Source of the DNA: Candidatus Hydrogenisulfobacillus filiaventi
Lineage (GTDB): Bacteria > Bacillota > Sulfobacillia > Sulfobacillales > R501
Length of the DNA: 64,000 bases
Direction of reading: 5' to 3'
Assembly (NCBI GenBank): GCA_902809825.1
Contig: LR778114.1
Location: 1,426,001 to 1,490,000 of the forward strand
A program made the position numbers and the translations under genes. Shown in pieces: positions 58,389 to 63,528 of this stretch (within the stretch, counting starts at the first letter, position 1; the number at the start of each line of letters is the position of its first letter). Under the pieces are notes generated by a model. That model was not told the origin of the DNA and searched no databases. It was given only the letters and a program-made list of their open reading frames with translations.

Positions 58389-59330
58389 TTAACCGGGCTG
58401 GCGGGGCAGGACCTCTGCCACCGTCCCCTCCTGTCCGGCCAGGAGAAAGGATTTGAACAGCCGAGCCGGCGGGGGCAGGAAGCGGTTCCGCACTTCCACT
58501 ACCTGCCAGGTGCGCAGGCGGGGAAAGCCCTGCACATCCAGCACCACCAGCCGTCCGGCCTCCAGTTCCAAGGCGATGGCCCGCCGGGGAATGACGGCAA
58601 TGCCCAGGCCGTTGGCCACCGCCTGTTTGATGGCGCTGTTGCTGCCCAGTTCCATCCCCGCCCGGAGGCGGACCCCGGCCTCGGCAAAAAAGCGTTCCGC
58701 GGTGGCGCGGGTGCCCGACCCGGGCTCCCGCAGGAGAAACGTCTCCTGCTCCAGTTCCTGCAGCGGGATCCGGTGCTGCCCGGCCAGACGGTGATCCGGC
58801 CCCGCGATCACCACCAGCTCATTGACCAGAAAGGGGGTAGCGACCAGTTCGTCTGCCTGTTCGGGCACCTGGCCGATGACGGCCAGATCCTCCCGCAGCA
58901 ATAACCGCTCGACGGCAGCCGTGCGGTTGGTCACCTCAAGGCTGATGGCGATGCCGGGATGCAACCGGCGGAAGGAACCCAGGTAGGCGGGGACGACATA
59001 CACCCCGGCGGTGGTATCGGCTGCCACCTCCAGCCGTCCTTCCTGGCCGCCGGCCAGGACGCGCATGGCCTCCACGGTTTCATCCAGGAGGGCAAAGATC
59101 CGCTGGCTGTAATGCAGCAGGCGCTCACCGGCTTCGGTCAGGACGATGCGGCGGCCCACCTTCTCGAAAAGGGGCAGACCCAGCTGCCGCTCAAGGTTCT
59201 TGATATGGATGGAGACGGCCGGCTGGCTCACAATCATGTCCTCGGCGGCCCGGGAGAAGCTCATGCGCCGGGCCACAGTCTGGAAGATCCGCAGTTGATG
59301 CAGGCTGAAGGCATCCTCCGGCCGGTTCAT
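58389..59330 (-). CDS. cbbR: LysR-type regulator, CbbR-like
   Basis: 313 residues. The N-terminal winged helix reads FSLHQLRIFQTVARRMSFSRAAEDMIVSQPAVSIHIKNLERQLGLPLFEKVGRR; the effector domain has GSNSAIKQAVANGLGIAVIP. Its closest context is the RuBisCO operon, so CbbR is the natural call; CbbR proteins bind metabolites of the cycle. The ATG at 59330 overlaps the end of the preceding gene by four bases. Here it is the last gene of the operon, not divergent as is usual. Confidence 0.85.
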   Translation of the reverse strand: MNRPEDAFSLHQLRIFQTVARRMSFSRAAEDMIVSQPAVSIHIKNLERQLGLPLFEKVGRRIVLTEAGERLLHYSQRIFALLDETVEAMRVLAGGQEGRLEVAADTTAGVYVVPAYLGSFRRLHPGIAISLEVTNRTAAVERLLLREDLAVIGQVPEQADELVATPFLVNELVVIAGPDHRLAGQHRIPLQELEQETFLLREPGSGTRATAERFFAEAGVRLRAGMELGSNSAIKQAVANGLGIAVIPRRAIALELEAGRLVVLDVQGFPRLRTWQVVEVRNRFLPPPARLFKSFLLAGQEGTVAEVLPRQPG

Positions 59331-60301
59331 CCGCCCCACTCCCATTCCGCCTCCGGGCCGTCCTCCTCCAAGGGGACCTCGGGGTGCATGCGGATCACCA
59401 GCGCGACCCGCCCCACGGCCTCCCCGCCCTCCCCGGAGGCCGCCTTCCCCACCTCCCAGGTCCCGGCCCGGGCCACCAGCACCGGCCCCGCGCCAGCTCC
59501 GTTGGGGGGTGGTGCGGTCTCCACCACCAGCAGCGCCTCCCGCCCGGGCCCGCACGGCCCAAAGCCGGCCGGACAGGGCACCGCCAGCGGACGCTGCAAG
59601 GCCTGAAGCTCCGGCCAGGGCGGCAAGGCCAGGTACGTTCCCTCCGGCACCGTCGCCAGCCCCCCCGGCGGCAACAACGGCACCGGCTCCGGTCCGGGGA
59701 CGGGCCGGTAGGGCACCAGGCGGGGCGCAGCCGGGGCGCCGGACCACGCCCGTACCGCCACCTGCGGCCGGACCGGTCCGGCAGGCGCTTCCAGGGCGGC
59801 CGCGTCCGGTCCGGCATAGGCCTCCGCCTCCGCCCGGTAGCGGGCGCGCATGCCGGGGTCCGGATGGGCCGCCGCCTGGCGCCAGCGGCGCCGGGCCAGT
59901 TCAGTACCCGGCCGGCAGCCTCCCGGCGGACGTCCCCGGCGCCGGCAGTCCTTTAAGGCCTGAACCAGCTCCTCCACCGGCACGCCGCGGAAACGCCGCG
60001 CCGCCAGAAACCGGGCCGCCGCCTCCCGTTCCGGGACGGCCAGCTCCCGCAGCTGATACAGAGCCCCGACCGCGTCCTCCGCCTCCAGCGCCCGGCGCTC
60101 CTCGACCGCCCAGCGGCTGGTGTCGAGGCTTTCCAGCACCAGGAGGGCTGTGGTCCATTCGCGGAGCAGCCCGGCCCCCACCCCCAACTCGCCGGCCACC
60201 CGGTCGGCCGGCACCCCCCCGGCCAGAACCGCCTGCAGGCGGCGCACCCGCGCCGGCCAGGAGCGTGCGCCCAGGACCTCCGTCACCCACGCCTCCGGCA
60301 T
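59327..60301 (-). CDS. unknown protein in the RuBisCO operon, 324 aa
   Basis: I do not recognise this protein. Residues 1-130 are helical and contain a helix-turn-helix-like segment VPADRVAGELGVGAGLLREWTTAL (about 29-52), reminiscent of ParB-type or transposon-regulator folds. The middle (about 130-200) is arginine/alanine-rich. The C-terminal 120 residues are beta-rich, proline-rich and acidic at the end. It has no Walker motif, so it is not CbbX. It lies between cbbS and cbbR, overlapping cbbR by four bases. The ATG at 60301 is preceded by GGGGAGGG at six bases. Confidence 0.75.
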   Translation of the reverse strand: MPEAWVTEVLGARSWPARVRRLQAVLAGGVPADRVAGELGVGAGLLREWTTALLVLESLDTSRWAVEERRALEAEDAVGALYQLRELAVPEREAAARFLAARRFRGVPVEELVQALKDCRRRGRPPGGCRPGTELARRRWRQAAAHPDPGMRARYRAEAEAYAGPDAAALEAPAGPVRPQVAVRAWSGAPAAPRLVPYRPVPGPEPVPLLPPGGLATVPEGTYLALPPWPELQALQRPLAVPCPAGFGPCGPGREALLVVETAPPPNGAGAGPVLVARAGTWEVGKAASGEGGEAVGRVALVIRMHPEVPLEEDGPEAEWEWGG

Positions 60302-60347
60302 CGTCATCCCTCCCCGGTTCCTGCCCCGTTCGGCCGATACCGGCAAA

Positions 60348-60383: not shown

Positions 60384-60710
60384 TCAGCGGCCAGCATCCG
60401 GCCAGTGGGCCACAAAACTCACCGCCTGCCCCTGGCGTATGGGATCGTAGCCATTGATTTTGATGTACTGGTCCGGAAAGGCCTTGCGGCAGGCCTCGAA
60501 CTCCAGCCAGACTGCGGCCGCATCCTTCACGTCGAACATGGGCAATCCCCACATGCGCCAGAACAGATTCCGGGGGCTCGGGTCGTCGGTATACTCGACG
60601 CTGACCACGTAGCCCTGATCCAGGATCCACTGCAGCTGGTCACGAATCTGCTCATCCGTCAGCGGGGGAAGGAAGGCAAAGGTCCCCTGCTGCACCGTCC
60701 GTAACTCCAC
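60384..60710 (-). CDS. cbbS: RuBisCO small subunit, red-type without the C-terminal hairpin
   Basis: 108 residues. The order TVQQGTFAFLPPLTDEQIRDQLQWILDQGYVVSVEYTDDPSPRNLFWRMWGLPMFD and YIKINGYDP matches red-type (form IC/ID) small subunits, with the short loop between the first strands. Those proteins normally continue for 25-40 residues as a beta-hairpin; here the chain ends right after the core, at VSFVAHWPDAGR. No frameshifted continuation is seen downstream. GTG at 60710 has GGAGGCGG upstream. It follows cbbL by 65 bases. Confidence 0.93.
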   Translation of the reverse strand: MELRTVQQGTFAFLPPLTDEQIRDQLQWILDQGYVVSVEYTDDPSPRNLFWRMWGLPMFDVKDAAAVWLEFEACRKAFPDQYIKINGYDPIRQGQAVSFVAHWPDAGR

Positions 60711-60775: not shown

Positions 60776-62269
<1,494 letters not shown>

Positions 62270-62576: not shown

Positions 62577-62915
62577 GTGGCCGGAACTGCCGCGCTGAAG
62601 CGTGAGACGGGCTGGACCTTCCTGACCAATCATTCGCACGTGTTAATCTGTCTGGCCCGCAATCCCGAACTGCGGACGCGGGATCTGGCGGCCATGGTCG
62701 GCATCACGGAGCGGGCAGTGCAGCGGATTGTGGCCGACCTGGTCGCGGAGGGCTTCCTCACCCGGGAGCGGGTCGGCCGCCGCAACCGGTACCGGGTGCA
62801 TGCCGACCGCCACCTCCGTCATCCGGTGGAATTTGAGGCCACGGTGGGGGCCCTCCTGGCCCTGGTCGGCACCCCCACCGCCGTCCCGACGGCCGGGGAT
62901 GCCGGCGGCCGGTAA
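62577..62915 (+). CDS. winged-helix transcriptional regulator
   Basis: 112 residues. The helix-turn-helix LRTRDLAAMVGITERAVQRIVADLVAEGFLTRERVGRRNRYRV with its wing is complete; the N terminus is GWTFLTNHSHVLICLARNP. It resembles a MarR/ArsR-type family widely distributed in bacteria. The C-terminal 40 residues are alanine/valine-rich. GAGGAGGGACC precedes the GTG. It is divergent from cbbL and could control either side. Confidence 0.85.
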   Translation: MAGTAALKRETGWTFLTNHSHVLICLARNPELRTRDLAAMVGITERAVQRIVADLVAEGFLTRERVGRRNRYRVHADRHLRHPVEFEATVGALLALVGTPTAVPTAGDAGGR

Positions 62916-63231
62916 GCCCCTGCGCCCCGGGCCCTGCCCGGACGCCCTGGGACCGGTCCCGTCCGCGGGCCCCGCGGCCGGCTGCACCGCCCCCGCAAGG
63001 CCGGTCCGCTGCCCCCCCGCAATGCCCGGCCCTTCCGCCCCTGTTGACCCGGCCGGCGCCGTATAAGCCGCCCTTTAGACCACGGTTAAAAACCCGAATT
63101 GGCCCCCCCGCCAGCGGGCCGTTTACCATGAATCCGGCCGCACCGCCGGCTCCCCCGCTTCCAGGCCCGCTGTCCCCGCCGGCGGTGCGCCGGGTCCCGC
63201 AGCCATGGATTGCCGGAAAGGGATGAACCGC
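62916..63231 (+). other. intergenic region after the winged-helix gene
   Basis: 316 bases, GC-rich. I see no gene or RNA. TTGACC at about 63042 with TATAAG twelve bases later is too close for a normal promoter. The last bases hold the ribosome site of the Dabb gene. Confidence 0.5.
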
Positions 63232-63528
63232 ATGATTCACCATCTCATCGTCTTCAACACCCGCCCCGATGTGCCGGAGGCCGTCTGCCATGACATGGCG
63301 TCCAGGGCGCGGGAGGTGTTAACCCGTATCCCCGGCGTCCGCGGGGTCTCCTTCGGGGTCGCCGACGCCCCCCAGCCGGCGTACCGCTACCTGCTGGTGG
63401 TGGAATTCGCCCATCAGGACGTCATCCGCTCGTACCGGGACCACCCCCTCCATGGAACCTTCGCGGATCACATGTTCCGGCCGTTGGCGGTGGATCCCAT
63501 CACCATGGATTACCGGATGGTGGTTTAA
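63232..63528 (+). CDS. Dabb (stress-responsive alpha/beta barrel) domain protein
   Basis: 98 residues of the dimeric ferredoxin-like Dabb fold: MIHHLIVFNTRPDVPE, LTRIPGVRGVSFG, YRYLLVVEFAHQDVIRSYRDHPLHGTFADHMFRPL and the end IDYxM-like TMDYRMVV. Such proteins are found near carbon-metabolism genes and are of unknown enzymatic role. ATG at 63232 has GGAAAGGG nine bases upstream; an ATG three codons earlier abuts the ribosome site. It is followed by a class II aldolase. Confidence 0.85.
   Translation: MIHHLIVFNTRPDVPEAVCHDMASRAREVLTRIPGVRGVSFGVADAPQPAYRYLLVVEFAHQDVIRSYRDHPLHGTFADHMFRPLAVDPITMDYRMVV

Follow-up and report, generated by a model that had tools for sequence, protein, structure and literature searches.

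The cbbLS pair analyzed here probably encodes a stem red-type form I RubisCO, expected to be an L8S8 complex, that split off before the C-terminal betaE-betaF hairpin of red-type small subunits evolved, kept the ancestral hairpinless small subunit and would be assembled with the assistance of Raf1. The pair lies in a 64,000-nucleotide stretch of DNA (the window) from 'Candidatus Hydrogenisulfobacillus filiaventi' R50, a hot-spring hydrogen-oxidizing bacterium. The reading is built on the position of the enzyme in the trees, on three hairpinless orthologues, on the linkage of raf1 to cbbLS and on the linkage of cbbX in two of the three genomes. From these observations we infer that Raf1 has an assembly role for this enzyme and that CbbX acts on it.

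In the window, cbbL, cbbS, raf1 and a LysR regulator gene follow one another on the minus strand, all with intact open frames. The form I large subunit encoded by cbbL (60776..62215; R50_v2_1596) has 479 amino acids and a red-type C-terminal tail, in line with the sequence-only reading, to which the large subunit looked red-type. After a gap of 68 bases follows cbbS (60384..60710; R50_v2_1595), which starts with GTG and encodes a hairpinless small subunit of 108 amino acids; with cbbS so placed, the pair is not of form I', in which the small-subunit gene is absent. Another 76 bases separate cbbS from raf1 (59327..60307), which encodes a RubisCO accumulation factor 1 homologue of 326 amino acids and whose stop codon overlaps the ATG of the regulator gene (ATGA). 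The LysR-family regulator (58389..59330) has the LysR domains and is probably CbbR, its NCBIfam CbbR score of 215 bits being under the model cut-off of 450. A gene for a small MarR-type winged-helix regulator (62577..62915, plus strand; MarR_2 match) is divergent from cbbL. On its 3' side, a Dabb-domain protein is encoded at 63205-63528 (plus strand), and the next frame, cut by the window end, resembles a class II fructose-bisphosphate aldolase by eye; a similar frame is found near the G061 cluster described below. Scans for promoters and terminators gave nothing above chance.

The sequence-only reading had noted that the small subunit ends at 108 residues, right after the core, and the open reading frame, the Pfam match, the alignment and an AlphaFold2 model all bear this out. 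RuBisCO_small matches the protein in full length (model positions 1-97 of 97, E 3.5e-36), and the stop codon comes 4 residues past the core, where hairpin-bearing homologues have at least 24 further residues. In the alignment, the protein has neither the C-terminal betaE-betaF hairpin nor the 2-residue betaC-betaD loop insertion of red-type small subunits. The AlphaFold2 model (mean pLDDT 86.5) shows a four-strand core sheet that ends at residue 102, with no later strands. The core, too, had looked red-type to the sequence-only reading. In the alignment the N-terminal half is strongly red-like; the betaC-betaD insertion is missing, and the core is not that of the red crown (forms IC, ID and IE). 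The closest matches in both sequence and fold are the reconstructed ancestral small subunits of PDB 7qsw, 7qt1 and 7qsy, which are likewise hairpinless. Those are laboratory reconstructions, whereas the window enzyme is natural and has a chaperone gene beside it.

Two relatives of the window locus were found in Thermaerobacter-class genomes, G061 (a MAG labelled Thermaerobacter) and G796. Their large subunits (partial in G796) are 84-85% identical, and in both genomes cbbLS, raf1, cbbX and cbbR form one cluster. The order in G796 is cbbL, cbbS, a MarR-type regulator on the opposite strand, raf1, cbbX, the LysR regulator, purE and purK, the two pur names being assigned by eye. The order in G061 is similar, with genes for an SbtA-like bicarbonate transporter and a PII-like protein ahead of raf1. 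R50 keeps cbbLS, raf1 and the LysR gene together, with cbbX outside the cluster, elsewhere in its genome. Linkage to cbbLS thus holds for raf1 in 3/3 genomes of the clade and for cbbX in 2/3 (G061 and G796), and in the cluster that the relatives share, a green-type assembly factor sits with a red-type activase. The MarR-type gene is also part of the cbb cluster in both relatives (a MarR_2 match at L162, a similar gene at L161). In G061, the transporter and PII-like insertion (L161:4217-5586) resembles the bicarbonate uptake pair of cyanobacterial style. The same locus contains, directly after cbbS, a Raf1-matching fragment (L161:2730-3194, 3.4e-13) in addition to the complete raf1 gene farther along, a layout that would fit a duplication or displacement of raf1 at this site.

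Raf1 serves green form IB RubisCO as its assembly chaperone and is otherwise known from cyanobacteria and plants.

The alpha-helical Raf1_N domain was found in the window product at 36.8 bits (cut-off 26.8). When a profile of the window protein and its two orthologues was compared with the PDB, only Raf1 chains were matched at E up to 0.1 (6kkm at 2.4e-22, 6smh at 1.5e-18 and 8ilb at 1.5e-17), and the alignment with plant Raf1 covered positions 10-341. The C-terminal beta domain RuBisCo_chap_C (cut-off 25) scored 25.1 bits in G061, 18.3 in G796 and 14.0 in R50. A model of Raf1 predicted from two sequences was of low quality (pLDDT 52.6); the fold search with this model ranked Raf1 chains first, which may lend weak support to the identification.

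In the family search, Raf1_N was present in all three clade genomes and in the cyanobacteria tested. It exceeded the cut-off in R50 only among 398 genomes sampled from the phylum of R50, and in G061 and G796 only among 153 genomes of the class of G061. Among the 65 genomes with a hairpin on the form I small subunit, none had a match. Since the genomes searched are related, these counts are not independent tests. Four genomes of other hairpinless lineages ('Ca. Chlorohelix', G762; G633; G554; G076) also had no Raf1_N match, so that a strict rule by which a hairpinless subunit implies Raf1 fails, and Raf1 is not needed by every hairpinless enzyme. A sub-cut-off match (5e-4) at L124 (G397:C315:2486-2722), in a Bacillota genome without a RubisCO match, is probably due to chance.

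According to reviews (PMC9833100, PMC9833052), Raf1 and RbcX keep large-subunit dimers associated and are then displaced by small subunits, the red-type hairpin can substitute for RbcX, and red-type organisms have neither Raf1 nor RbcX. On this model, GroEL would fold the large subunits of the window enzyme, which would then dimerize. Raf1 would hold the dimers together as L8, and the hairpinless small subunit would displace Raf1 to yield L8S8. CbbX would reactivate the inhibited enzyme via the red-type tail of the large subunit. In the red crown, where Raf1 was not found, the hairpin would later have taken over the assembly role. The sequence-only reading had named another mode of assembly as one of two possible consequences, and a raf1 homologue directly downstream of cbbS, linked in all three genomes, supports it, with Raf1 as the presumed agent.

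The main rival accepts a stem red-type enzyme but takes Raf1 to be a later horizontal acquisition and optional, assembly being basically spontaneous or dependent on GroEL/ES only. That Raf1_N was found only in this clade and in cyanobacteria speaks for it, as does the lack of a match in the other hairpinless non-cyanobacterial genomes. However, raf1 has been kept beside cbbLS in all three genomes although their large subunits share no more than 84-85% identity. This Raf1 is moreover just 23-33% identical to two cyanobacterial Raf1s, which are 47% identical to each other; these values make a recent transfer unlikely, an argument that does not cover an old one. We consider late acquisition rather unlikely.

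The preferred reading of a stem enzyme assembled with Raf1 can be extended backward. Raf1-assisted assembly may have been ancestral to the common stem from which green and red form I enzymes arose, in which case this clade would be its last red keeper, and hairpin gain and Raf1 loss would be one linked event. We put this forward tentatively, as a possibility that is less likely than not. If it is true, a built-in structure, the hairpin, replaced a separate chaperone in all crown red enzymes.

The window enzyme may show an assembly mode from before the hairpin evolved, and it stands in contrast to the reviews that deny Raf1 to red-type organisms and give the assembly job to the hairpin (PMC9833100, PMC9833052). 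As a natural enzyme just outside the crown, with Raf1 and, in two genomes, CbbX, it makes the shift from chaperone to built-in hairpin directly testable. It also allows a test of whether a green-type chaperone can assemble a red-lineage enzyme, which is relevant to the problem that red-type enzymes are hard to assemble in plant chloroplasts.

The placement outside the crown comes from trees of both subunits. The large-subunit tree was built from 72 sequences (LG+C20, 475 columns), with form ID left out and form IE labelled by taxon only. The window enzyme, G061 and G796 formed one clade (100/98). Together with 'Ca. Chlorohelix' (G762) and a crown of 44 rows, this clade made up a red total group (100/99), and green IA and IB formed a separate group (100/99). 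The crown itself (100/100) sat on a long stem, and each of its 44 members had the hairpin. The large-subunit tree leaves the order of 'Ca. Chlorohelix' and the three-genome clade below the crown unresolved; in the tree of the small-subunit core, from which the hairpin was excluded, the three-genome clade was sister to the crown (99/93), with 'Ca. Chlorohelix' next. AU tests rejected a grouping of the three-genome clade with the green enzymes (p 0.017) and with the red-type enzymes of Sulfobacillus inside the crown (p 1.4e-4).

The window enzyme thus belongs to the red total group both by its grouping apart from green IA/IB and by its red-type tail and CbbX activase, and it lies outside the red crown (IC/ID/IE) by the missing betaE-betaF hairpin and by its large-subunit placement in a tree without form ID. 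It is not a green form IB enzyme, as its large subunit does not group with cyanobacterial IB. Form IE was considered as a group in which the hairpin is consistently missing and was rejected as the explanation, since the sampled crown members from its usual phyla, Actinobacteria and Chloroflexota, all carry the hairpin. The earlier suggestion of a separate form I clade is supported, with both trees and the AU tests putting the clade just outside the sampled hairpin enzymes. A 2023 paper had already placed the window large subunit outside IC/D. Our literature search, with most subscription papers and all preprints outside it, did not turn up any description of the hairpinless subunit, of the linkage with Raf1 or of a position immediately outside the crown.

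On the large-subunit tree a single change suffices to explain the hairpin state, most simply as a gain where the crown begins. For this count, the form IA row L179 was recoded as short, tail length alone having scored it as hairpin; the small subunit in question (G1087) carries a C-terminal extension of about 24 residues that is unrelated by eye and misleads a length-only test. This lineage most likely never had the hairpin, as opposed to having lost it. Secondary loss from an ordinary red-type ancestor, with Raf1 recruited in compensation, would fit the strongly red-like N-terminal half of the small subunit. Yet the trees of both subunits put the enzyme outside the hairpin crown, the AU test rejects nesting with the Sulfobacillus enzymes, the betaC-betaD insertion of the crown is absent as well, and another lineage outside the crown, that of 'Ca. 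Chlorohelix', is hairpinless too. Such a loss is very unlikely. In G061, a second RubisCO (L005:3929-5766, G061:C103) with a hairpinless small subunit, its large subunit 72% identical to that of the window, branches deeper, near the base of form I, where the large-subunit tree resolves its placement weakly.

Among known systems, red-type form I (IC/ID, IE) is the large group that both subunit trees place closest to the clade, and with it the clade shares the red-type tail of the large subunit, seen in the window, and a linked CbbX in two of its three genomes. It differs from that group by the lack of hairpin and betaC-betaD insertion, by its position outside the crown and by having Raf1. The RubisCO of 'Ca. 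Chlorohelix allophototropha' has been published as a deep-branching class IC-ID enzyme (PMC10972752). It resembles the window enzyme in its stem position within the red total group and in its hairpinless cbbS, which adjoins its cbbX. It is nevertheless a separate lineage, with no Raf1_N match in the genome and with cbbS about 10 kb from cbbL. We had considered form I' for it, as no small-subunit gene was found within 1.5 kb, and dropped this when the hairpinless cbbS was found beside cbbX. The cyanobacterial form IB enzymes also have a hairpinless small subunit, and Raf1 is present in the cyanobacterial genome searched; unlike that of the window enzyme, their large subunits stop short of the red tail, and a grouping with them is rejected.

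Besides the window locus, the R50 genome has two further cbbL loci. One is a complete cbbLS (L085) whose small subunit has an ordinary hairpin, so that R50 carries both kinds of enzyme. Transcripts of the window pair were low in R50 under batch and O2-limited growth (PMC10080006); we take the published low-transcript pair to be the window genes because only the window cbbS and the hairpin-bearing cbbS are intact in the genome. The text of that paper does not mention a hairpin, Raf1 or CbbX. The low transcripts and the two other cbbL loci would suit a decaying or rarely used extra copy, with R50 depending on its hairpin-bearing RubisCO and the window locus doing little. This is hardly credible, however, as the frames of cbbL, cbbS, raf1 and the regulator are intact, the cluster is conserved in two other genomes, and the published growth conditions are few.

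A frameshift or sequencing error that conceals a hairpin in cbbS, for which one could cite that another cbbLS copy of the same assembly probably contains homopolymer errors, has a practically negligible chance. The three frames past the stop hold nothing hairpin-like (compared with four hairpin sequences, the best local score is 22, while shuffled sequence averages 25-27), the G061 and G796 orthologues from two independent assemblies stop at the same place, and both the alignment and the core tree set the small-subunit core apart from the crown type. The frameshift that the sequence-only reading had wished to exclude is thereby ruled out at the level of sequence.

The copy with the probable errors is the third cbbLS locus of R50 (L086, G000:C1:257217-258986), a 99% DNA copy of L085. 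The differences between the two are partly deletions of one base within G-runs, by which both frames are broken; this looks like long-read consensus error. If so, the three cbbL and two cbbS genes published for R50 may in fact be three of each.
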